From contig NC_003281.10 of assembly GCF_000002985.6 (NCBI RefSeq), positions 11,780,001-11,844,000 on the forward strand: a stretch of 64,000 bases of DNA. Reading direction: 5' to 3'. The stretch comes from Caenorhabditis elegans. Lineage: Eukaryota > Nematoda > Chromadorea > Rhabditida > Rhabditidae. Each line of letters begins with the position of its first letter. Positions within the stretch are counted from its first letter, which is position 1. Below the pieces are notes generated by a model. The model searched no databases. It had not been told where the DNA came from and saw nothing but the letters and a program-made list of their open reading frames with translations. Positions 4,214 to 63,400 of the stretch are shown here, piece after piece. The position numbers and the translations under genes are program-made.

Positions 4214-6052
4214 TCACAAACTTTGGAATTCATTTTTGAGCTCTTGTGGTTGTCCTGGCATCATCATTTGCTGCTGTTGCCACCAAAACTCGTATTGTTT
4301 TTGATAATACATATTCCAAGCTAATTGAGCATTATTTTGAACTTCGAAATTGTAATTCTGAGCACTTGCAAACTGTGGCTGGTAGTTCTGCGGAGCCACA
4401 AAATTCTGGTTGAAATAATACGGGGTTTGCTGTGGGAGATCTATTTGCGGTGAGATTGTCGGTGGGGTTACCAATTTGCTGCGTTTGGGCGGAGAGTTTT
4501 CAGAATTTTCAGAGTCTGAAGAAAGCCGTCTCTTGCCATTCGAACGAAATCCGGATGCAAATTTATTGTGATGAACCTTGAGGTTTTTGAGGATTTCGTT
4601 CTGGAAAAGGGTACAATTTTGTAGAGAATATATGTATGTAGTTGGTGAAAAATTTCTAGTTGTGGGTAATTGAATTTGCTACATTTTTTTATTTTTTAGT
4701 TGACAAAATTTTAATAGCGTAGTTTCAATCCGGCACTTAATGAAAACTTAATGCTTTTTCCGAAATTGCCATGCCGAATAAATTTACCGAATTTGACGTG
4801 CTCGACAAATATTTTGAAAAAGTCGATTTGCGGCCTAAGCTTAAGCCTAAGACTAAGCCTAAGCCTAAGCCTAAGCCTAAGCCTAAGCCTAAGCCTAAGC
4901 CTAAGCCCAAGCCCAAGCCCAAGCCTAGGGCTAATCAGTGATGGGCAGCGAACATGCTTTCTTGGCGAACGACGAATTCGGCAAATTTGTCTATGCAGTT
5001 TTTTAAGTTTTCCAGGTTTTTTCTGAAGGTTTTTTCCTGTATAATGGCGTAAGCCTAAGCCTAAGTCTAAGCCTAAGCCTGAGCCTAATCCTAAGCCTAA
5101 GCTTAAGCTTCAGCAAATGGCAACTTTCGGCAAGTTTTTCAGTATTTTTTTAATTTTGAATTAGATGCTTTCTATATGTCTACATTTATTTTTGATTTGA
5201 AAAGTTGGAATAGCGCTTCGAAATTTACAGTTTTGGAAACTTGAAAATATGCTCTCCAACTTTAAACTACTTCATCTCCGTTGATAGTGACGCGATTAAA
5301 ATGTTTTCAACTTTTTTCAACAAATTGTTGCAAATTTAATTTCCCACACCCTTTCAAATAACTAACCTGATAAGCAGTGACCACCATAAATTCAGTAGCC
5401 TCCAACCGGAACTGCTCCCCACTAAAATCCTCTTGATACCCTGTCTTATAATGTCGGACCTGTTTAACAGTGACCACTGGAATGTGCTTATGCATACTCT
5501 GCACTAAAATGACCTTCTGATCCTTGATTTCCGGGTTATTCGTGATTTTGATGTGAGCAAACGAGACGGGCTCACTCATCCATTCTGCTCCAGTACGCTT
5601 GCCACGCGGATGCTCCTTGTATTGGATTGGAAGAATCGGATCTCCTTTGGCGAATTCTTTCCATTCTCCTGCGTCGAATTTGTATCTGGAAATGAGTTCA
5701 AGTTTTTGAAATTGGAATCGTCCTATAGGTTATAACTCTGAAAGTATACCAGCTATCAAAAAGTTGTCAATTTAGAAATTGTAGCAAATTTAATTTTCTA
5801 CAATTTACCAGTTGAAAATTTTTTTCTATCTTTTAACCCAACTCACTTAATCCCGTCAACACGTTCCAAATGAATATAAATCGAGTAGAGACTGCCTGGA
5901 TCCAATCCCTTGATGATATAGTCCAAATGCGGAAAAATCACCCTTCCACGGTTTCTCGTCACAATCATTTCGGTTTTCGGGTAGAACTCTTCCCAAATTT
6001 CTGGTGTGCTCAAGGAGACTTTAATTCCGGATGGGGAGGTGCACGAGTACAT
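4214..6052 (-). CDS. tbx-38: T-box transcription factor, probable tbx-38, 303 aa
   Basis: Exons on the minus strand are 5847-6052, 5367-5685 and 4214-4600; they join in phase to 303 residues. The T-box fills about residues 6-195. Recognisable blocks are FYPKTEMIVTRNRGR, VIFPHLDYIIKGLDP, EWMSEPVSFAHIKITNN, KVILVQSMHKHIP, ATEFMVVTAYQNE and KVHHNKFASGFR. The C-terminus has a basic KRRLSSDSEN-PPKRSK stretch (possible nuclear signal) and a Gln/Asn-rich tail, perhaps for transcription. It binds DNA in the nucleus as a T-box regulator. The start is the ATG just before the T-box; an in-frame upstream ATG at about 6097 and another at 6275 are alternatives. The symbol rests on memory that tbx-38 (C24H11.3) lies next to paired PP1 genes; the paralogue tbx-37 or another divergent worm T-box cannot be excluded. 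The family call is firm and the symbol moderate. Confidence 0.75.
4833..5113. repeat. Interstitial telomeric repeat with a non-telomeric core
   Basis: Two GCCTAA tracts (4833-4930, with about eight perfect units at 4857-4907, and 5048-5113) flank a unique core of about 110 bp at 4936-5045. The core contains GGGCAGCGAACATGCTTTCT and GTTTTCCAGGTTTTTTCTGA. A related core lies in opposite orientation at 6482-6597. The element is inside the T-box gene intron 4601-5366. Confidence 0.85.
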
Positions 6053-6307
6053 GGTAATGCTGTAACAGGGGGAGTTATAGGAGTAACAGAAGCACAAAAA
6101 AGTGAGACCGGAAGTAGAGCAACAAAAATCTAATTGTAATAAAAGTGCTAACCACTCTCACTAATTCTGTAAAACTGAGCCGGTAAGTGGGCGGAGCCGG
6201 AAGGGGCTGGGCCACACGTAGGGGTGGACACGTGGCAAGTGGAGCACAACTTGGCACATATGAGCGTGTGGCCATGGGAGATGTAGCGCACGGCGGCCTT
6301 GGGTGCA

Positions 6308-6695
6308 GGCTTAGGCTTAGTCTTTAGGTTTAGTCTTAGGCTTAGTCTTTAGGTTTAGGTTTAGGCTTAGACATAGACATAGGCTTATGCTCAGGCTTAG
6401 GCTTAGAGTTATGCCTAGGCTTAGGTTTAGGCTCAGTCAGGCTTCTGCTTGGGCTTAGGCTTACAATTAGGCTTAGGCTTACACCTTTGAACAAGAAAAA
6501 ACCTTCAGAGAAAACCTGGAAAACTGGAAAAACTGCATAGGCAAAGTCGCCGAATTCGCCGTTCACCAAGAAAGCCTGTTCGCCGCCCATCCCTTATTAG
6601 GCTTAGGCTCAAGCTAAGGCTTAGGCTTAGGCTCAGGCTTAAGCTTAGACCTCAGCTCAGGCTCAGGTTTAGGCTAAAGCATAGGCTTAGGCTTT
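6308..6695. repeat. Interstitial telomeric repeat (TTAGGC)n with inverted core
   Basis: TTAGGC-like tracts at about 6308-6481 and 6598-6695 flank a core (6482-6597) that is the reverse complement of the one at 4936-5045. The whole unit lies just upstream of the T-box gene, in the opposite orientation to the intronic unit. Confidence 0.85.
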
Positions 6696-6719
6696 TTGAA
6701 TTCACACCAATATAATAAT

Positions 6720-6985
6720 GACCTAGAAGGATCACACGCGAAGTATATCCAAAATAACTGTAAAATCGGAACACTCATTAAACTGCGAGCCAATGTTGGT
6801 GTCTGATTCTTGAACACCTCTTCCTCCAACTGAGCATCTCTATGGTCTTCAGCAATCTAGAATGTGTAGTTCACACTTCAAAAGTATACCTCCACCCACA
6901 CCTTGACACCTCACACTCTAGTGATAGCGGTGCGCAGTTTTGAATTGGCTCGGAAGGAGAAGATGTGTCGGGCTCAGCGGGAGGG
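6720..6985 (-). other. Possible exon remnants of an unrecognised gene
   Basis: On the minus strand, an AG at about 6859 opens a frame reading IAEDHRDAQLEEEVFKNQTP and then about 25 further residues before it runs into telomere-like repeat. Upstream, 6985-6903 reads PPAEPDTSSPSEPIQNCAPL and ends at a possible GT donor. Both pieces are GC-richer than their surroundings. I find no start codon or family. They could be extra 5' exons of the T-box gene, an old pseudogene, or chance. Confidence 0.25.
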
Positions 6986-7029: not shown

Positions 7030-7330
7030 AAAAATAATTTTATATTTTGTTTTTCATACATTTTTCAATAGCTTCATACTTAAACGTTACTATTAAATGT
7101 ACATTTCTTCCAGTAATTTTTACTGCAAATATGAGATTTTTCAAGTAATAATAACGGTTCAAAAACGGTTCGAAACACTTGGCAAAATACTTTATAGCAA
7201 AGTATAAGCGGCACATGTCTTTGAGCCGTAACACAACTCTCTGCCATGTATGGTACGCCACGTGGTTTGGAAAACGAAAGACACACGATATTGTGGGAAA
7301 CTTGGAGGACATCTGGAAAATTAAAGAAAA
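7030..7330 (-). repeat. Decayed copy of a fragment also found at 9985-10430
   Basis: The minus strand contains CCAAGTTTCCCACAATATCG and an AACCACGTGGCGTAC block. Related blocks occur at about 9985-10075 (plus) and 10365-10425 (minus) within the palindrome spacer. It contains an open frame of about 98 codons with no recognisable domain, so I treat it as a dispersed fragment and not a gene. Confidence 0.4.
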
Positions 7331-7489
7331 AAACAATATCGATTAGGAATTTAGGAATAGTTGGAAAACGATTTACAAACTTTTTGATAGCTTTGATAAC
7401 AATTTAATCACGAAAATTATAATAAAAAATTATTGAAAAAAATTTACAAAAAAAAAAAGAAATTTTTCGCGTCAAAAACAAAAAAAAAA
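7331..7489. other. AT-rich flank left of the palindrome
   Basis: This low-complexity stretch has long A runs at 7450-7495 and a GATAACAATTTAATCACG block that resembles the palindrome arm near 7548-7590. No gene is seen. Confidence 0.5.
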
Positions 7490-7747
7490 AAAAAACGCTA
7501 TAAAAAAGTTGTCAACTATCAAAATGTAGAACATAAAATTTACAATTTTTGGATAGTTTACAACTTTAATAACAATTTAGTTACGCAAGTTTAAAACAAT
7601 TTAAAAATGTTCGCGTCAAAAATAAAAACAATTGTTATCGCAATGGTCAATCAATAAATCATCAAAATCAATAAATCAATAGAAAGAAAATAAATTCATT
7701 AATTGATAATTCACACTTCAAAGGGATCAATTTGAATTGAAAACGAA

Positions 7748-9457
7748 ATGAGTTCAAATTCTTCGAATTCTTCAAATCCTGCTGCAACAGATGCTCCAAA
7801 GGTAAGTGGAAATTCAGATGATTCTTTAAAATGCCTCTACCTTTTCAGAAAACTTCCGTTGAACCGGGTTCGGAAGCCAACAATTGGCATATCACGGAGG
7901 CCGATGAGAAGGGATTCAAGTTGACCGATATGATCAAGAAACTTCTGAAGCCTGTATTCTCGAAAGCCATTATGTTTGATGTAAGTAAAGGAGACTCTAT
8001 ACCGGCCTGCCTGCTTCACCTGTGCCTGCCTACATGCCTTCCCATTGCCTATCTGAATCATCCCTGCATATTTACCTGCCTGCCTCATACCTGCCTAAAT
8101 GTTTAACCACTGCATTCCTACCTATTCTCTACCTGCACCATCCCTGCGTTTCTAAGCGGTTGCCTGCCTACCTACCCACGCCCCTGCCTGTCTATTTGCC
8201 TCCATGCCTACCTACGTTCCTAATGTCTTTTTTTCAGGAAAAAGAGATCCATGTGCTGTTGACACGTGTCTTCAAGTACTACACATCTCCACCGAACAAG
8301 AAAACTGCACCATCTGCTTCAGCATCTGCAACCACATCTATGAGCCCTCCAAAACCGGCTGCAAATGCTCTTTTGGAACTTCAAGCTCCGATCAACATTT
8401 GTGGAGATACCCACGGGCAGTACAACGACTTGCTTCGTATTTTCAATGTAAGTCCTTACCTGCCTGCCTACCATACCAACTGCATGTGTGCTAAGCTGTT
8501 CTATATGTTCCCTTTCAGGCCTGCGGAGCAGCGACAAAAACTCAATACCTCTTCCTCGGGGACTACGTGGATCGTGGAGGTCACTCATTGGAAGTCATTA
8601 TGCTTCTCTTCTCACTCAAATTGGCAATGCCCAGAAAGATGCATTTGTTGAGAGGAAATCATGAGTTGAAGGCCATCAACAAGTAAGCACATGTTAGTAG
8701 ATCTGACACAAAATAATCTTATTGGTAACAGAAACTACGGCTTCCACGCGGAGCTCAAGAAGCGTTTCCAAAGGGAAGAAGTGTATGAATCGGTTTACAA
8801 TCACTTCAATCAAGTCTTCTCGTATATGCCCCTGTGTGCAATCGTCTCGAAGCGTATTCTCTGCATGCACGGAGGGATTTCTCCACATTTGAAGTCTCTC
8901 GATGATATTCGTGCAATCCCATTGCCACTGGAAACTGCAAAGACTCATGTGAGTTTCCGTCAAAATGCCCGACTTGATCGGAATATCGATAGTCTGCGCT
9001 TCTTTTCATCTTAATACCATTTCAGCCTCTCGCTTGTGACTTGCTGTGGGCAGACCCTGAAAAGGATGCCAAAGGCTTTGAGCCCAACAAGATCCGTGCA
9101 ATCTCGAACGTCTTTGGAAAGAAGGAGGTTGATGATTTGTGCAAGAGATTGGATATCGATTTGATTGTCAGAGCTCATCAGGTTGGTCTTTTTACTAGTT
9201 CTATTTGTGCTCTATTAACTATAAATATTCTCCAGGTGGTCGAGTACGGGTATGCATTCTTCGCTGATCGTCGCCTCATCACTGTCTTCTCGGCATCTCG
9301 TTATCAAATTGAGCTCTGCAATTATGCAGCTGTTGTGGTGGTCAACAAGATGCTCGAACTTAGCTTTGTTCAGCTCAAACCCGAAGATTTCGAAGTTCGA
9401 CGTGATGAGTGCGAGGAGAATGCCAAGGATCAGACGACTTCAAATGTTCCTCATTGA
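7748..9457 (+). CDS. PP1-type Ser/Thr phosphatase, palindrome copy A, 384 aa
   Basis: Seven exons: 7748-7801, 7849-7980, 8238-8447, 8519-8682, 8732-8948, 9026-9181 and 9236-9457. The product is 384 residues, longer than typical PP1 (about 330). Metal and catalytic motifs are present: GDTHGQ (GDIHGQ in PP1), [30 protein letters not shown] and RAHQ. Two features are unusual. A Ser/Ala/Thr/Pro-rich insert of about 23 residues precedes the LLELQAP strand, and the SAPNYCGE loop before the C-terminal strands reads SASRYQIE. The enzyme should hydrolyse phosphoserine and phosphothreonine. Worms have many such divergent PP1 paralogues, often sperm-enriched; expression here is an inference. Introns carry a CCTGCCTGCC-type low-complexity repeat. 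AATAAA lies at 9479-9484. From memory this may be C24H11.1 or C24H11.2. Confidence 0.9.
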
Positions 9458-9499
9458 GTTTTTGGCTGTCTGAATTTGAATAAAGTGTTTTTGGGGGAA

Positions 9500-10493
9500 T
9501 TGGGGTTTGTACAGTCAATTTGTTAACTAGAATAGAACATTTACAGTAATTTGAAGTAACAATTAGTTTACGATTTTTCAAAAAATTGTGCAAATATCTC
9601 AGGTAGGGCTGTACAAATCGGATTCCGGTCGTCCGATTTTGACTCCGCCGGACGCACATGCGTCCGGTTTAAGGTAGGTTTCCACGGCGGCCGACAGTTT
9701 CCGAGTTTCGCCACCTTCTATACTAATCATAGAATTCTGTAGTGAGTGGCGAAACTCGGAAACTGTCGACCGCCGTGGAAACCTACCCCCAACCGGAACA
9801 AATCGCTTGCCGCCCCTTTGCCATATTCACTTCAGAATGGCTGCAATCTCATGTCCCAAAAATTGAGCAAACTACATAAAACTTGTCAACCGGAAAAAAT
9901 ACATATTTCCCCAAATTTCATAGTTAACAACTTATTGAATTCCCCTCTTGTTTTCAAGATACAATTGTACAAAGTGACGTCATCCTTTTAATGACCTCCC
10001 AGTTTCCCACCGTTCTGTCTCGTGTGTCCTCGTTTTCCAAGCCACGTGGTAGGTACGAAGATGTGTACCAAGAAACCAATATCTTCCAAATTTGTATTAA
10101 AGATATGCGTACGCATGACGGTCAGAAACATCGGCGGCAATAGCTTCTTTCAGAGTAGAGTTTGGGAAATTTTATGGACTAAACTTGTTCAGTAGAGCAT
10201 TGTTTGCTAAAGTTCAGGATATGTCCCTAACAACTGGCAAAAAATTGAGCGGCATGAGCCTTTAACCGTACCGCAAGCACTATTCCAGAGCATTCTTCCA
10301 AATTTGGAAGATATAGGTTTTCTGGTACATACGTATGCCTCTCCTTTTCACAATATTTTCCGAATTGCCACGTGGCGTGAAGAACGGGGGACACACGATA
10401 TAGTGGAAAATTGGAGGTCATCTTGGTATTACAGGAATGACGTCACGTAAAAAATTGTTAACCATTTTTAAAAAAGTGTGATCTATTCCCAAG
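9500..10493. other. Spacer of the phosphatase palindrome
   Basis: This 994-bp stretch between the arms has no convincing gene. It holds the hairpin at 9671-9787 and two partly inverted diverged copies of a fragment (about 9985-10130 plus, 10210-10430 minus) related to 7030-7330. An open frame on the minus strand at 10227-10421 has no recognisable domain. Confidence 0.6.
9671..9787. repeat. Short palindromic hairpin element
   Basis: The left arm AAGGTAGGTTTCCACGGCGG (from 9671) is matched by an inverted right arm ending at 9787. Arms of about 43 bp with few mismatches surround a loop of about 30 bp. Both arms include TTTCCGAGTTTCGCCAC or its complement. It looks like a small fold-back element or a hairpin-forming site. 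Confidence 0.8.
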
Positions 10494-10535
10494 TTCCCCC
10501 AAAAACACTTTATTCAAATTCAGACAGCCAAAAAC

Positions 10536-12245
10536 TCAATGAGGAACATTTGAAGTCGTCTGATCCTTGGCATTCTCCTCGCACTCATCACGTCGAACTT
10601 CGAAATCTTCGGGTTTGAGCTGAACAAAGCTAAGTTCGAGCATCTTGTTGACCACCACAACAGCTGCATAATTGCAGAGCTCAATTTGATAACGAGATGC
10701 CGAGAAGACAGTGATGAGGCGACGATCAGCGAAGAATGCATACCCGTACTCGACCACCTGGAGAATATTTATAGTTAATAGAGCACAAATAGAACTAGTA
10801 AAAAGACCAACCTGATGAGCTCTGACAATCAAATCGATATCCAATCTCTTGCACAAATCATCAACCTCCTTCTTTCCAAAGACGTTCGAGATTGCACGGA
10901 TCTTGTTGGGCTCAAAGCCTTTGGCATCCTTTTCAGGGTCTGCCCACAGCAAGTCACAAGCGAGAGGCTGAAATGGTATTAAGATGAAAAGAAGCGCAGA
11001 CTATCGATATTCCGATCAAGTCGGGCATTTTGACGGAAACTCACATGAGTCTTTGCAGTTTCCAGTGGCAATGGGATTGCACGAATATCATCGAGAGACT
11101 TCAAATGTGGAGAAATCCCTCCGTGCATGCAGAGAATACGCTTCGAGACGATTGCACACAGGGGCATATACGAGAAGACTTGATTGAAGTGATTGTAAAC
11201 CGATTCATACACTTCTTCCCTTTGGAAACGCTTCTTGAGCTCCGCGTGGAAGCCGTAGTTTCTGTTACCAATAAGATTATTTTGTGTCAGATCTACTAAC
11301 ATGTGCTTACTTGTTGATGGCCTTCAACTCATGATTTCCTCTCAACAAATGCATCTTTCTGGGCATTGCCAATTTGAGTGAGAAGAGAAGCATAATGACT
11401 TCCAATGAGTGACCTCCACGATCCACGTAGTCCCCGAGGAAGAGGTATTGAGTTTTTGTCGCTGCTCCGCAGGCCTGAAAGGGAACATATAGAACAGCTT
11501 AGCACACATGCAGTTGGTATGGTAGGCAGGCAGGTAAGGACTTACATTGAAAATACGAAGCAAGTCGTTGTACTGCCCGTGGGTATCTCCACAAATGTTG
11601 ATCGGAGCTTGAAGTTCCAAAAGAGCATTTGCAGCCGGTTTTGGAGGGCTCATAGATGTGGTTGCAGATGCTGAAGCAGATGGTGCAGTTTTCTTGTTCG
11701 GTGGAGATGTGTAGTACTTGAAGACACGTGTCAACAGCACATGGATCTCTTTTTCCTGAAAAAAAGACATTAGGAACGTAGGTAGGCATGGAGGCAAATA
11801 GACAGGCAGGGGCGTGGGTAGGTAGGCAGGCAACCGCTTAGAAACGCAGGGATGGTGCAGGTAGAGAATAGGTAGGAATGCAGTGGTTAAACATTTAGGC
11901 AGGTATGAGGCAGGCAGGTAAATATGCAGGGATGATTCAGATAGGCAATGGGAAGGCATGTAGGCAGGCACAGGTGAAGCAGGCAGGCCGGTATAGAGTC
12001 TCCTTTACTTACATCAAACATAATGGCTTTCGAGAATACAGGCTTCAGAAGTTTCTTGATCATATCGGTCAACTTGAATCCCTTCTCATCGGCCTCCGTG
12101 ATATGCCAATTGTTGGCTTCCGAACCCGGTTCAACGGAAGTTTTCTGAAAAGGTAGAGGCATTTTAAAGAATCATCTGAATTTCCACTTACCTTTGGAGC
12201 ATCTGTTGCAGCAGGATTTGAAGAATTCGGAGAATTTGAACTCAT
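10536..12245 (-). CDS. PP1-type Ser/Thr phosphatase, palindrome copy B, 384 aa
   Basis: This is the mirror image of the gene at 7748-9457. Exons are 12192-12245, 12013-12144, 11546-11755, 11311-11474, 11045-11261, 10812-10967 and 10536-10757. The protein is identical except at residue 6, where TCG (Ser) in copy A is CCG (Pro) here. All the PP1 motifs noted for copy A are present, as are its insert and altered SAPNYC loop. Splice sites are intact, so both copies look functional. The two genes are convergent, with 3' ends about 1.08 kb apart. Because introns and the untranslated flank match too, transcripts will be hard to assign without the residue-6 variant. Confidence 0.9.
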
Positions 12246-12503
12246 TTCGTTTTCAATTCAAATTGATCCCTTTGAAGTGTGAATTATCAATTAATGAATT
12301 TATTTTCTTTCTATTGATTTATTGATTTTGATGATTTATTGATTGACCATTGCGATAACAATTGTTTTTATTTTTGACGCGAACATTTTTAAATTGTTTT
12401 AAACTTGCGTAACTAAATTGTTATTAAAGTTGTAAACTATCCAAAAATTGTAAATTTTATGTTCTACATTTTGATAGTTGACAACTTTTTTATAGCGTTT
12501 TTT

Positions 12504-12781: not shown

Positions 12782-12853
12782 GCCCGTATAGCTCAGTGGC
12801 AGAGCGTCTGTCTCGTAAACAGAAGGTCGGCGGTTCAATCCCGCCTGGGGGCA
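12782..12853 (+). tRNA. tRNA-Thr (anticodon CGU)
   Basis: The 72-nt sequence folds as a cloverleaf. The D stem is GCTC/GAGC, the anticodon stem TCTGT/ACAGA encloses loop CTCGTAA (anticodon CGU, reading ACG), and the T stem GGCGG/CCGCC encloses TTCAATC. Internal promoter boxes TAGCTCAGTGG and GGTTCAATCCC are present, and a T run follows at about 12864. The acceptor stem GCCCGTA/TGGGGGC has one G-G mismatch at pair 5-68 and a U-G wobble at 6-67, so this copy may be slightly degenerate. It has no intron. Confidence 0.92.
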
Positions 12854-46430: not shown

Positions 46431-49400
46431 ATGGGCCATCGTTCGCGTAGCAATAGCAGATCGCAATCACGTTCTCGAGAGGTTTGTTTTTAATTTTTTA
46501 AATTTGTTTTTTTCGTAATTTCCACTAACTTTTTTAACCGTTTTGCACGTTTCTAACACGCTAAATTCTGTAAAATTTCGAAGAAAACGTGTTTTTTCCA
46601 AAAATTTCAGTAGAAAATGTTAAAAAATTAAAAAATCTGCAGCAGACTCCTCTCTCTGAAATGAATATGTGAGAAGAAAGAAAATGCGGAGAAACACGCT
46701 GAAAAAAGAAAATTGTTGTGTTCGGAAAATATATGGTATATTTGGGAGAGAGAAAGGCTTTGGAAGAAAGAAAATAAAGAATATATTCTGGGGGAAATGG
46801 AAATTCAACTGAGAGAAGAGATTAAAGAAGGTTTTGGTCGGACATTTGCCCCGTTTTGCAGAATTCTCGTGGACGCTCCAGATCGGCTTCAAAGTCACCA
46901 GTATATCATCGCAGGGAACGCGAGAGGTGAGTTTTCATGGAGTTTGGCGGACGAGGATCTACGCGAATCTGGCACAGTGCCAAGTTTTTGACACTGCAAC
47001 TTTTTCCTCACGAGGGACGAGGAAAAGTGGTTTCTAGGCCATGGCCGAGGGGCCGACAAGTTTCAGCGGCCATTTATCTTGCTTTGTTTTCCGCCTGTTT
47101 TCTTTTGTTTTTCACAGCTTTTTCCCGTTTTTTCTTAATAAAACTGATAAATAAATATTTTTTGCAGATGCTAAAACAATTTCCAAGTAAAAAAATTATG
47201 TATTCAGTGGGCAAGCAGCGGTGAAAGTGGGCATTGTAATATGATGGATTACGGGAATACAAAACCTAAACTTTTTCTGAAACATGATACATATGCTGCT
47301 TAGATGCTGAAACTACCTGATTTTCATAACGAGACCGCTGAAAAAGTTTTGAGGTTTTCAAAATTCAACTTTTTTGGTGAAAAAGTCGAGATTTTCGCGC
47401 AAAATGTCGAGTTTTGAAAATCTCAAAACTTTTTCAGCGGTCTCGTTATAAAAATCAGGTAGTTTCAGCCTCTAAGCAGAATATATATCATGTTTCAGAA
47501 AAAGTTTGGGTTTTTTATTCCCGTAATCCATCAAATTACATTACCCACTTTCACCGCTACTTGCCGACTGATAACATGAAACATTTTTTTACTTGGAAAT
47601 TGTTTTAGCATCTGCAAAAAGTATTTATTTATCAGTTTTAATAAGAAAAAACGGGAAAAAGCTGTGAAAAACGAAAGAAAACAGGCGGAAAACAAAGCAA
47701 GATAAATGGCCGCTGAAACTTGTCGGCCCCTCGGCCATGGCCTAGAAACCACTTTTCCTCGTCCCTCGTGAGGAAAAAGTTGCAGTGTTTGAGGCCCCAC
47801 AATTTGATGATAATTGAGGAGAAATGGAAACTTTGCGGCTAAAAAAAAAAAGAAGAAAAAACCGTGCCGCAGGGTTGCAAATTTACGCTCCGCCTCCTCT
47901 TTTTCGGTGCCACGGATGATCGGTTGTTCAATTTCAACAGCTCTTTAAAACACGTCGTCTAGTCAAAATGCCACAAAAAAACTGCAAAAAAATTAATGAA
48001 TTTGAAAAAAAGATTTTTACGACTCCGCCTCGATGCTCCGCCCACTTTTCCGTGCCGCACTTTGATTTTTCTCAATTCCGAAGCATATTTTTGAATTTTT
48101 TTTAGTGGAAAAAACCAGTTTTCTACGTAAGAAAATCTATATTTTACAATTAAAATACAAAAAATTACCAAAAAAACTCTAACTTTAATATAGAATCCAA
48201 CGAACGACTCTAAATAAGTGTCTCTCTCGTTGAATTTCCATAAAATTTGAATTTTTCGGCAACTTTTTCGAATTGTAATCATAAAATATAGGTTTTCTTA
48301 AATGAAAACCAGTTTTTTTTTCCTTTAGAAAATTCAAGAATTTGCGTTAGAATTTGCAAAAGTTGGAGTGCGGCACGGAAAAAGGTGCGGAGCATCGAGG
48401 CGGAGCCAAAAGTCGTCATTTTTTCAAATTCATGAATTTTTTAGGTTTTTGTGGTTTTTCGACTAGAAAACTAGATTTGAAGAAGAGCTGCCTCACAGAA
48501 AAAGAGGCGGAGCGTAATTTTGCAATCCTGCGGCACGGTTTTTTCTGCATTTTTTCAAATTTAATTATCATCAAATTGTGAGGATATTTCATGCCAAATT
48601 TGTTGAAAAAAAGACGAAATATCCAAAAACCACGCCGCAGGGTTGCAAAATTCATATATAAGATTTTCGTAGATCTTCTTCCCCAACAGATCCTCTTTCC
48701 GTATAACCTCCATCAAATTTGCAGCTCCCGTTCCCGTTCTCCACGTGCTCGATACGGAGGTGGTGGTGGTGGCGGTGGCGGTGGTGGCCGCGGCCGTAAC
48801 CAACAGTATGATCGTGAAAATCCACAGCCATCAAAGTGCCTCGGAGTATTCAATCTGTCTTCGTACACAACTGAAAAAGACTTGCGCGACGTGTTCGGCG
48901 AGTTTGGAGAGATTAACAAGTGCGATCTGGTCTACGATCGTCCATCGGGAAATTCACGTGGATTCGGCTTCATTTACTTTAATTTGATTGAGGATGCGAC
49001 AGCGGCGAGGGATAAGCTGTGCAATACAGATTTGGATGGTCATAAGGTTCGATTCAGACAAAAAGCGCAAAAGAAAAACGGAACATTTGAAATTTTGGCC
49101 AAATTTCCACCCCGATTTTCAAAAAAAAAAAACCGAAAAATCCGGTTTTTTTTTTTGAGTAAATAATAACTCAAATTTTTCAGAGAAAAACCGTCAAAAA
49201 ATCGCGAAAAATTGAAAAATCAAGCTCAGATTTGAATTCCGACCAATCAGCGATTCGAACTCCGCCCACTGCACCTGATTGGTTGACAAGTGGGCGGAGC
49301 GAATCGATGATTGGTCGGGGGTTCTCATTTTGGAGGGAATTTAGTCAAAATTTAAAAATCGCAATTTTTCTGAATTTTAAACTATTTTGGATGCTACCAC

Positions 49401-57400: not shown

Positions 57401-60400
57401 ATTTTTTTTTCGATGTTTCCCTAAAAAATTGGGAAAAAAAATCGAAAAACTCAAAATTCACAAAAATATAAAAGAAATTCATGAAGGATCGAATTTTTGC
57501 GATTTTTTTAAAAAGATTTTGAGCTCAAAAATCATGAAAAAATTTTTTTTCAGAATTTTAAGCTGAAAATTCCAAAAAGAAAAATTTTTTACAGATTTTA
57601 ATATTTTTTCGTCTAAAAATATATTATTATATTTTTTGACAAAAATGTAACAAAATTGCATGAAAAATATTGAATTTTTGAGCTTAAAAATTCAAAAAAT
57701 TAGTTTTTTTGCAGATATTAATTTGTTTTATGACCGTTTCTCGAAAAATGAAATAACTTTTTAAAATTTTTTTCTCAAATTTTCTGAAATCCCTATGTAA
57801 AAAACTACTGAAAAAGTGTTAAAAATGACCAAAAATTGCAATTTTGCATTTTTTGGAACTTAAAACGCAAAAAGGTTTCAAATTACATTTTTTTTTTGCA
57901 AAGGAAAATAATAGCAACTAATATAACTCTCAGTAATTGTGCCAATTCCCCGTTTCTCCTTACCATTGACAAACGTCTCCGAGACGGTTTGCTGCACAAC
58001 TAGGGGAACTTCAGCTGGTTCTGACGATGTTGTAGTGGTGGTGGTGGTTGTGGTGGTGGCAGGTGCTGCTGCAGATCCACGAGACGTCGTTGAGGTGATA
58101 CTTTCCTTCTTTTGAGGCATCTGAAGATATATAGAGGGTTACTTGCGATTTTGAGCTTTTTTTGGAATATAGAATTACTGGGGGGGATTCACAAAAACAG
58201 TGAAAATTTGAGCGAAAAAATTCAGTTTTTAGGTACTTTTCCTTATTTTCATTTTTTTAGTTCGGAATTTTGAAAGCTGAATTTTAAAAAAATAAATTGT
58301 TGAAAAATTATTTAAAGGTGACTCAAAATTGTCTGAAAACATCGAATTTCATAATGAAACTTCTTGAAATCTTCTCAAAAAAAGTTACGGCTGCTCAAAA
58401 AATGACCTAAAATTAGTTAAAATTTGAAATTTGACCGTTTTGCGGCTGGAAACTAACTTTTTCAACATCACCGTCTAATTTTGAGTATACAAGTTAATTA
58501 TCTTGCGTTTTCAACTCGATTTAGGCACATTTAGGGTCGATCTGGTGATCCAAATGTACCTAAACCGAGTTGAAAACGCAAGATAATTAACTAGTGTATC
58601 CAAAATTAGACGATAATTTCAAAAAAGTTAGTTTCCAGCCGCAAGACGGTCAAATTTCAAATTTTAACTAATTTTAGGTCATTTTTTGAGCCGTCATAAC
58701 TTATTTTTTGAGAAGTTTTCAAGAAGTTTCACTTTGAAATTCGGTGTTTTCAAACAATTTCTAGTCTAATAAAGCTATAAAAAGTTCTACTACATCACCT
58801 TAAAATGTTAAAATTTCTGACAATAACTGATAAATCTTTAAAAAAACGTTCTAGAACTTGGATATTCCAAAAAAAAAAAAAAAATTGCCAGCTTTTGTTT
58901 TTTTCTTTGAAAATTTCCATGAAAAGCCACCATAAATTTAGTGGGGTGCTTCATCTTAAAAATGTTGCCTAGCATTCCATATTATGCTGTCCTAGTTCTG
59001 AATATGTTCCTTGTTGTAAACTAGTTCCTTCGTTTCTTTTTTAATATGGAAATTTCGGGAAAAATCTGGAAATTCTCTTCTTTGTTTTTCTACTAGAAAA
59101 CGAGGAAAATTGCTCCAAAACAAGCAGAAATCGACTGAAAATCACGTTTTTTTGCAGTTTTTCTTTTTGTCGGAATTTTTTTTTTAGAATTTTAGAAAAT
59201 ACCAAAAAATTATTGGCTTTTTTTAATATTAAAACTTGTTTAAATGTTTAAATGTTATTTTCGTCTAAAATATGATGTATTCTGATTTTATCAAATTTTG
59301 AGCTAAAAATTACCAAAAAATATGATTTTTCTAACATTTTATCAAGTTTTTTTCGTTGGAAAAATAAAAAATTCTGGTTTTTTTACAAAAAATTGTACTT
59401 AAATTCTTTTTTTGTTTCTCGAAAATATCAAAAAATCGCATTTTTCGAAATTTCTAATTTTTGGTTACTGTAGCCTACTACCGTACCCCAAAACATTGAA
59501 ATTCACGAGATTTGGCACAAAAATCGAAAGCTAAGGGGTAAAAATTCACGCTGAATTCGAAAATTTCAACGGGAAAGTGACGTAAAAAACATATAAATGC
59601 ATCAAATTATACGTTTTTTCTAAATCTATCTAAAAACCACAATACCATATAACTAATATATATATTTATATATACTATATACTATATATCACAAATCACA
59701 ATCACAACGGTCATATACATCTATCTATATATATATATATATATATCACCTCCTCATCAGCATTAAGATCTTTCTCTTCGGCAGAATCAACGGAACACGA
59801 TTTTTCCGTAATTTGAAGAGAGTCTTCCGATAGCTTTTCGGCTACAAGAGGAGCCTCCGGGCTTTCTTCGTCTTCCTGATATTATTTTAGATGTTTTAGT
59901 TTTTTTTTTTCAAATTTCTATGTTTCTATGCTACACTGCAACTTTTTTCGAACGAGGGACGAGGCAAAAAGGTTTCTAGGCCATGGCCGAGTCCCTGACA
60001 AATTTCAGCGGCCATTTATCTTGCTTTGTTTTTCGCCTGTTTTCCTTCGTTTTTCACAGCCTTTTGCCGTTTTTTCTTATTAAAACAGATAAATAAATAT
60101 TTTTTGCAGATGCTAAAATAATTTCCAAGTAAAAAAATTATGTTATCAGTCGGCAAGTAGCGGTGAAAGTGGGCAATGTAATTTGATGGATTACGGGAAT
60201 AAAAAACCCAAACTTTTTCTGAAACATGGTATATATTCTGCTTAGAGGCTGAAACTACCTGATTTTTATAACGAGACCGCTGAAAAAGTTTTGAGATTTT
60301 CAAAACTCGACATTTTGCGCGAAAATCTCGACTTTTTCACCAAAAAAGTTGAATTTTGAAAACCTCAAAACTTTTTCAGCGGTCTCGTTATGAAAACCAG

Positions 60401-63400
60401 GTACTTTCAGCATCTAAGCAGCATATGTATCATGTTTGGGAAAAAGATTGGGTTTTGCATTCCCGTAATCCATCATATTACGTTGCCCTCTTTCACCGCT
60501 ACTTGCCGACTGATAACATAATTTTTTTACTTGGAAATTATTTTAGCATCTGCAAAAAATATTTATTTATTAGTTTTAATAAGAAAAAACGGCAAAAGGC
60601 TGTGAAAAACGAAAGAAAACAGGCGGAAAACAAAGCAAGATAAAAGGCCGCTGAAACTTGTCGGCGTCTCGGCCATGGCCTAGAAACCACTTTGCCTCGT
60701 CCCTCGTGAAGAAAAAGTTGCAGTGCTACATAGGCTAATTAATCGCTAGAAATCAAAGTTTTTCTCTATTTTTTTCAAGGGCTTCCATGGCAGCAGGCAT
60801 GGTTTCAGGGCCTGACGGCTGCCTGAAACCTGCTCGCCTCACGCTGGCTTTTCGCTTTTTTTCTGCATTTTGGCGTAAGTTTTCAAATTTCAAAGTTTTT
60901 AGCCCTAATTGTTCTACAGTTTTGGCCATGTTTCCCTACTTTTTCCATTAAAAAATGATGCCAACATATAGAAAATCACTCGATTAATCTGAAAATAACA
61001 TTTATTTTAGCTTAAACATTCGATAAAGTGGTCGAAAATTTGTTAATCCGACTTATCAGATTTTTGAGCACTTTTTCGAATTTTTCAGCTAGAATAAATG
61101 TTATTTTCAGATTAATCAATTGGTTTTATGAATTTTTTGAGTGAAAAATGTTGGAAAAACATGATTTTTCGCTCTAAGAATTTCGATTATGTTTTACAGT
61201 TTTGGTCTAATGCACCATGTTTTTCTACATTTTTTATTAAATATTAACGCCAAAATATAGAAAATCACTTGATTAATCTGAAAATAACGTCAATTTTAGC
61301 TTAAATATTCGAAAAAGTGCTTAAAAATTCGATAAATCGGCATTTTTGAGCACTTTTTCGAATGTTTAAGCTGAAATTAACGTCATTTTCCTATTAGTCA
61401 AGTGATTTTCTACATTTTGGCATTATTTTTTAATGAAAAATGTTGTAAAAACATGGTTTTTTTCTAAGAATCTGCATTTTTTCTTTTTTTCCAGTTTTGA
61501 CCTTGTTTCCCTAAATTTTTCATTCAAAAATATTGTCAAAACATAGAAAATCACTTGATTAATCTGAAAATAACGTTAATTTTAGCCTAAAATTCGAAAA
61601 AATGCTCAAAAATTCCGATTTATCAAATTTTTGAGCACTTTTTCGAATTTTTAAGCTAAAATAGATGCTATTTTCAAATTAATCAATTGATTTTCTATGT
61701 TCTGGCAATATTTTTTTTAATAAATGAATAATTTTGGAAAACATGGTGCATCTTGGCGCTGGCTCCGTGCCAGATTCTTATTCCACAGATCCCCCTTTCC
61801 GTGGGGCCATTATAGGCTTAAAGGCCAATTTTTTTCGTCAAACAAACCTCGCTAACAGATTGAGCCAACACTGGTTTACTAGCGGCTGCTGCAGCCGGCG
61901 GAAAAACTGGTGAAGCAGCGGCGATAGGAGCCGCCTGAGCCAGTGACGGGGCCGGTGAGTTTGCCGAAATCGGAGTTGATGGGACGGGTGTAGTTGTACT
62001 TCGACCGGCTGCCACTGAATTGTACGGTATCCCGGGTGGTGGTGGGGCTGCGGATGCTGGAAGAAATATAAATTTTTTGTGGTTTTTTGGTTGAAAATTT
62101 GAAAATTTCAGTTTTTTAATTGGAAATTTTGGGGATTTCTCTATTTTTTTTTACGCAAAATGTTTTTTTCAGCTACTTTTTTTTAGAAAATTTCTGAAAA
62201 TTTGTGAAAAATTCAAATTGCCGAAAATGGAAATTTGCCAGAATTGAAAATATCCGGCAAATCGTCAAATTGCCGGATTTGAAAATTTCTGGCAAATCGG
62301 TCAAAAGCCGAAAATGAAAAATTCCGGAAAATCGGGAATTTGCCGGAATTGAAAATATCCGGCAAATCGTCAAATTGCCGGATTTGAAAATTTCTGGCAA
62401 ATAGGCAGATTGTCGGATTTCAAAATTTCTGTCAAATCGGCAAACCGGCAATTTCCCGAAAATCAAAAATTCCGGCAAATCGGCGGAATTGAATATTTCC
62501 GGCAAATCGGCATATCAGGCAAATTTGCAATTTGCAGGAATTGAAAATTATGAAAAAAAAATTCCAGCAAATCGGCATATCAGGGGAATTGAAAATTTCC
62601 GGCAAATCGGCAAGTTCCCGAAAATCCAAATTCCCGACAAATTGGTAAATTGCCGGAATTAAAAATTTTCGGCAATTCGGCAAGTCGTCGGAATTGAAAA
62701 TTTCCGGCAAATCGGCAAATTGGCGGATTTCAAAATTTCCAGCACATCGGCGGAATTGAAACTTCCCAGTGAATCGACAAATCGCTAGAAATGAAAATTT
62801 CCGGCAAATCGGCAAATTGCCGGCATTGAAGTTTTCCGGCAAATATCCAAATTGCCGAAAATGAAAATTTCCAGCAAATCGGCAAATCGCCAGAATTGAA
62901 AATTTCTGGCAAATCGGCAAACCGACAATTTGCCGAAAATTAAATATTCCGGCAAATCGGTAACTTGCCGGATTTGAAAATTTCCGGCGAATCGGCACTT
63001 TTTAACCATTTTTCCTATATTTCAACGCGGAATTCCATAATTTTCCCATTTTCAGGGCGCAATTTCTCTAGAAATCGATTTTTCCTAAATCTCTCCAAAT
63101 TCTCCAAATCCTCACCAGGCGTGACAGGCGGTGTTCTAGGCCTATCCACATTCGAATCTTTACTAGCCAGCCGCTTAAGTTCCGGCGTAACCGCGTGTGG
63201 CGACGGCATTGACAACGGAACAATCCGCCGTCCAGCAGGGCTCGGCGGTTGTCCATTCTCTCCACTTGTGTGCCGTGAGCCCGACACTGCTCCAGACTCG
63301 GCCGTGTCAATCCCGAGCTCATGACCGTTCTCCCGATGCTCATCGTCCACTGACGCCACGTTGACTCCTCCAATCTGTTGGCAAAGCTTCTCAAGATTAA

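Follow-up and report, generated by a model that had tools for sequence, protein, structure and literature searches.

Near-identical inverted gene pairs in Caenorhabditis elegans have been interpreted in two ways, as newborn duplicates or as old pairs whose likeness is maintained by gene conversion. A locus on contig C3, which we take to be chromosome III, an autosome, raises the question of which reading applies and how such a palindrome forms. The locus lies in a 64-kb window (C3, 11780001–11844000; positions given without a contig label are those of the window) and consists of twin PP1-like phosphatase genes, presumably C24H11.1 and C24H11.2, carried in the arms of a near-perfect palindrome. 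A diverged third copy with recognizable flanks on both sides is present on contig C4; the locus can therefore tell how the palindrome formed, and both the newborn and the conversion readings become testable. Overall, the sequence makes it reasonably probable that a recent duplication of one PP1-like gene in inverted form gave rise to the palindrome, with a flip of the adjoining ∼1-kb segment.

Results

Arm 1 (7490–9499, plus strand) and arm 2 (10494–12503, minus strand) of the palindrome are each 2010 bp long and are separated by a spacer of 994 bp (9500–10493). Exact alignment of arm 1 with the reverse complement of arm 2 revealed a single mismatch; the 2009 matching positions (of 2010) form two unbroken stretches, of 273 and 1736 bases. 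This confirms the original prediction of two near-perfect inverted arms matching through exons, introns, and flanks. The mismatch pairs position 7763 (T) of arm 1 with position 12230 of arm 2 (G on the plus strand, C on the minus strand). As had also been claimed, this one difference falls in codon 6 of the phosphatase genes, which reads TCG (Ser) in arm 1 and CCG (Pro) in arm 2. A 2-kb match of such identity is not a matter of chance. The arm edges are abrupt, and from 9500 to the center we observed 30–45 mismatches per 50 bases, which corresponds to background pairing. The remaining inverted matches in the window (at least 150 bases at 85% identity or more) are repeat elements, none of them longer than 808 bases. 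When an arm was searched against the window's own genome (100,286,401 bases in 7 contigs, used for all genome searches described here), 55 matches were returned: the two arms, at separate places; a relative of 83% identity on C4; and 52 short matches, 48 of which fall on a repeat at the start of the arm (its first ∼100 bases) or on similar sequence. The inner and outer flanks of each arm differ, which disfavors a simple assembly duplicate.

Each arm holds 258 bases upstream of the coding region. Its seven exons amount to 1155 coding bases with the stop counted in, its introns to 555 bases, and the arm continues for 42 bases beyond the stop. In the splice-site model, gene 1 occupies 7748–9457 on the plus strand, with exons at 7748–7801, 7849–7980, 8238–8447, 8519–8682, 8732–8948, 9026–9181, and 9236–9457, and gene 2 occupies 10536–12245 on the minus strand with the same exon structure. 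Both models are complete over seven exons and 384 codons and are identical except at codon 6, such that the predicted products are 384-residue proteins with Ser6 (gene 1) or Pro6 (gene 2). The genes look intact, and two nearly identical phosphatases are thus expected. Protein-database entry P0001 (serine/threonine-protein phosphatase, Caenorhabditis elegans) corresponds to the Pro6 version. Paralogs in opposite orientation inside near-perfect inverted arms are what characterizes the published gene-pair palindromes of C. elegans (PMC1803023), and this is the arrangement found here.

The third copy (C4:13320001–13321871, 83% identical overall) differs markedly from the arms. Read under the arm exon model it contains three in-frame stops, and no protein from the C4 locus appears among the 120 relatives listed; this copy is a pseudogene. 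Its exons are 89–94% identical to those of the arms and its six introns 63–89%, with a nonsynonymous divergence (dN) of 0.055–0.058, a synonymous divergence (dS) of 0.18–0.21, and a noncoding divergence from arm 1 of 0.228 over 705 sites. Given the intron identities and dS values, introns of this phosphatase gene do diverge. Codon 6 of the C4 copy is TCG, as in arm 1, and the relatives in C. remanei, C. briggsae, and C. brenneri have Pro at the place aligned with codon 6, in a stretch of low complexity. A dispersed repeat was also seen inserted in the upstream flank of the pseudogene (within C4:13318001–13324000).

With respect to the origin of the palindrome, the most informative comparison is that of the four arm flanks with the two flanks of the C4 pseudogene. 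The outer flank of arm 1 (7311–7488, plus strand) shows homology to the sequence upstream of the pseudogene, with 88% identity over 7311–7369 and 76% over 7402–7488. The corresponding alignment score is 44, which none of 500 shuffles reached (maximum 25), whereas the outer flank of arm 2 scores 15 against the same sequence, a value reached by 153 of 500 shuffles. In genome searches, the C4 upstream flank was the one other match of 7311–7369; the segment 7402–7488 has one additional match of 47 bases on C3 and is related to the repeat inside the arm. No other match to the outer flank of arm 2 was found in the own-genome search.

At the downstream side it is the inner flank of arm 2 (10448–10493, minus strand) that is homologous to the pseudogene flank, over about 28–46 bp. 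The C4 copy continues into this flank (CTTGGGAAT..ATCACA) with an anchored score of 21, unmatched in 300 shuffles, whereas the inner flank of arm 1 gives an anchored score of 6, reached by 14 of 300 shuffles over 40 bases and by 19 of 300 over 60 bases. Local scores against the C4 downstream flank are 21 for arm 2 (0 of 2000 shuffles) and 13 for arm 1 (78 of 2000). Likewise, when the genome was queried with the final 42 bases of arm 2 and the 46 bases beyond, the C4 match extended ∼28 bases past the edge and the arm 1 match ∼6. When the element in the spacer was left out, the arm 2 side aligned further with the C4 downstream sequence (2 of 2000 shuffles).

The original flanks are thus divided between the two copies, as is expected of a duplication with inversion; the upstream evidence is strong and the downstream evidence shorter. 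A plain duplication in which one arm kept both original flanks was rejected, subject to the weak points discussed below, as the C4 upstream flank corresponds to the outer flank of arm 1 and the C4 downstream flank to that on the inner side of arm 2. The C4 copy, as we read it, shows the layout that preceded the palindrome. After plain inverted copying, both original flanks would be expected at one twin, whereas one is found at each. The spacer has therefore probably been turned around relative to that earlier layout.

The spacer itself contains a dispersed palindromic repeat with many genome copies (9600–9797) and a self-inverted element resembling a miniature inverted-repeat transposable element (9974–10446, ends approximate). 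A partial relative of the latter lies to the left of arm 1, within 7089–7310. Repeat elements were considered as a cause of the breakpoints, and this idea is unsupported, since the 9974–10446 element and its partial relative are not at the arm edges.

In terms of protein identity, the genes had been described as PP1 genes, a label that holds only in part. Metallophos was the only domain found in a Pfam scan, the closest relative of solved structure is the PP1 subunit FAP15, and the motifs that serve as Metallophos metal ligands (GDTHG, GDYVDRG, RGNHE, HGG, and RAHQ) align with those of PP1 and are kept, which suggests that the arm phosphatase is probably active. These features, namely the Metallophos core and the aligned metal ligands, are shared with PP1 catalytic subunits such as GSP-3 and GSP-4. 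The arm protein differs from them in that it reads SASRYQIEL where PP1 has the loop SAPNYCGEF, carries a Ser/Pro-rich insert preceding the phosphatase core, and gave no match to Pfam PF16891 in the same scan. The sequence SASRYQ is present in 10 of the 120 relatives listed and, among ten aligned relatives, in all eight that extend to the loop region. Taken together, these observations identify the arm protein, at the level of sequence, as a nematode PP1-like phosphatase rather than a standard PP1. The gene had also been called fast-evolving, which would be consistent with the 74% and 73% identity of the arm protein to its C. remanei and C. briggsae relatives. Because the protein database is clustered at 90%, a second near-identical gene in another species would not show up as an entry of its own. 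GSP-3 and GSP-4 are known sperm PP1 enzymes (PMC11269235, PMC11914268), and the main text of the sperm PP1 study PMC11914268 does not mention C24H11.

Within the C. elegans genome, protein-level matches outside the three copies are at most 61% identical, with lower values for the long ones. Two further inverted PP1-like pairs were noted, each ∼200 kb apart: one on C4 near 10.75/10.96 Mb (95.6% over 4066 aligned bases, in an alignment that reaches the end of the compared stretch) and one on C2 near 9.83/10.03 Mb (92.1% over 1495 bases). Inverted duplication has therefore occurred on more than one occasion in this family.

Elsewhere in the window, a tRNA-Thr gene (anticodon CGT) lies just beyond arm 2 (12782–12853), and telomere-like blocks face each other at 5047–5114 and 6338–6702 (GCCTAA occurs 5 times in 5000–5130 and TTAGGC 14 times in 6300–6720). 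Two palindromic repeat elements of ∼800 bases (46991–47788 and 59926–60733) are 90–93% self-inverted and 90–94% alike.

Discussion

The proposal that the arms stem from a recent inverted duplication is supported by their identity through introns and flanks, by the sharp edges, and by the much greater divergence of the third copy; near-zero divergence combined with sharp edges is also what marks newborn inverted duplicates. Starting from one gene, whose upstream flank would now lie outside arm 1 and whose downstream flank would now border arm 2 on its inner side, one event may have copied the gene and its downstream segment in reverse. This could have occurred by a template switch back over the gene, by staggered breaks, or by formation of a fold-back palindrome that then lost its center, in that case through a deletion on the arm 1 side. 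The resulting order would be upstream flank, gene, inverted downstream segment, inverted gene, and unrelated sequence, with one substitution since. We infer the inversion from the divided flanks, and the single event and the youth of the palindrome are likewise our reading of the sequence. A difference of 1 in 2010 at 2e-9 per site and generation corresponds to ∼124,000 generations (limits ∼3,100–693,000), an age that is valid only if there has been no conversion between the arms. The rate was derived from a value of 4.22e-8 under msh-2 knockdown, ∼23 times wild type (PMC8727991).

Several points weigh against a young duplication with an inverted spacer. When the 100-base downstream flank of the C4 copy was searched alone, it found only itself, even with E values up to 10. 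The inner flank of arm 1 and the C4 downstream flank have an exact 13-base word in common, and their best score over a longer stretch was reached by 46 of 2000 shuffles; with downstream-flank evidence this short, arm 1 and C4 may be weakly homologous at this site, which would weaken the claim of inversion. The inner flanks of arms 1 and 2 also score slightly high against each other (7 and 9 of 300 shuffles). Moreover, the youth of the palindrome is read from the identity of its arms, and the published inverted pairs of C. elegans are old and kept identical (PMC1803023).

The last of these points leads to a different history, in which the palindrome is old and its arms have been kept identical by arm-to-arm gene conversion. 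The original prediction had offered this as one possibility, and Zhao and co-workers make the case for it in other worm gene pairs. The published pairs are far more alike within species than between species (PMC1803023), and the arm 1 inner flank slightly resembles the other two, which could be a vestige of an older duplication that was once longer. Nonetheless, the identity of the arms reaches their very edges without decay, and although gene conversion does occur in C. elegans, the largest survey gives a mean tract length of 117 bp (range 12–2,958, with surviving tracts mostly of 50–200; PMC3966223). Because tracts are this short on average, one duplication is simpler than many conversions over 2 kb, and we consider an old, conversion-maintained palindrome unlikely, with conversion between the arms a possible process at this locus.

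Long near-identical inverted arms around a 994-bp spacer are substrates for recombination. A plain inverted duplication could thus have come first, with the spacer flipped later by a crossover between recombining arms, which would explain the same division of flanks; inversions are indeed reported to arise from recombination among inverted paralogs (PMC3449122). This history invokes two events where one suffices, and to us it seems improbable. One copy-and-flip event or a fold-back with deletion requires no later exchange between the arms, whereas the crossover route does; the sequence cannot choose among these three routes. A single gene wrongly doubled in the reference assembly might also produce near-identical arms. 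We judge such an artifact very improbable, as the arms have four different unique flanks, differ from each other at one base, and are bordered by sequences that match two different ends of the C4 copy.

The favored account, a young inverted duplication with a flipped spacer, can be set beside several known systems. The literature on C. elegans already describes near-perfect inverted gene pairs as a class, and the phosphatase locus is a further member. The F44E5.4/F44E5.5 pair has 2207-bp arms that are 99.7% identical and a 126-bp spacer, and it shares with the HSP16 locus and the palindrome described here arms of ∼2 kb, identity above 99%, a short spacer and, in some cases, convergent genes (PMC1803023). 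These published pairs also occur in C. briggsae and C. remanei, and their likeness in three species is read as active maintenance (PMC1803023); the phosphatase palindrome differs in that its spacer looks inverted. The newborn duplicates of Katju and Lynch, as summarized in PMC2728529, are likewise adjacent, inverted, and of near-zero divergence, with inversion probably occurring within the duplication; the phosphatase locus differs in having a diverged third copy that polarizes the flanks. In Drosophila, staggered breaks leave inverted duplicates on either side of an inverted segment (PMC5080602), an arrangement similar to ours, although those inversions are chromosome-scale while the inverted segment here would be ∼1 kb, with the mechanism inferred. 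The human Y palindromes (cited in PMC1803023) also have long near-identical arms carrying genes, but they are far larger, and conversion at the worm palindrome is only a possibility. The analogy to sex-chromosome palindromes drawn in the original prediction is accordingly weak, the more so as C3 is presumably autosomal. A literature search for the pair under the names C24H11.1 and C24H11.2 led to two papers, each with one of the names in an expression table and with nothing on the palindrome alongside. Searches for work on double-stranded RNA from inverted repeats of the worm, on PP1-like expansions, and on spacer inversion in wild isolates yielded little. An inverted-repeat catalogue of chromosomes III and X, by LeBlanc in 2000 and cited in PMC1803023, may list the phosphatase repeat.

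The suggestion that convergent transcription of the twins could yield double-stranded RNA did not fare well, as convergence alone is insufficient. Each arm has its own AATAAA poly(A) signal, 15–20 bases short of the inner edge (9479–9484 on the plus strand for gene 1, 10509–10514 on the minus strand for gene 2), and 994 bp separate the arms, so double-stranded RNA would need read-through of the spacer. The position of these signals inside the arms argues against routine read-through, and the literature consulted on this point shows no small RNAs from the locus. Each mRNA should instead end inside its own arm, and the two mRNAs, having the same sense sequence, would not be expected to pair.

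Overall, the palindrome is real, probably young, and of the published kind. What this locus usefully adds is evidence from the flanks in favor of an inverted spacer. Should recombination between the arms take place, the orientation of the spacer would differ between strains, which is directly scorable. That the arms recombine often enough in this selfing worm for the spacer to flip between strains, in exchanges that also keep the genes identical, seems to us quite unlikely; were it true, the locus would be a small reversible inversion switch, and a crossover between the twin phosphatase genes would have left the spacer of the reference strain inverted.

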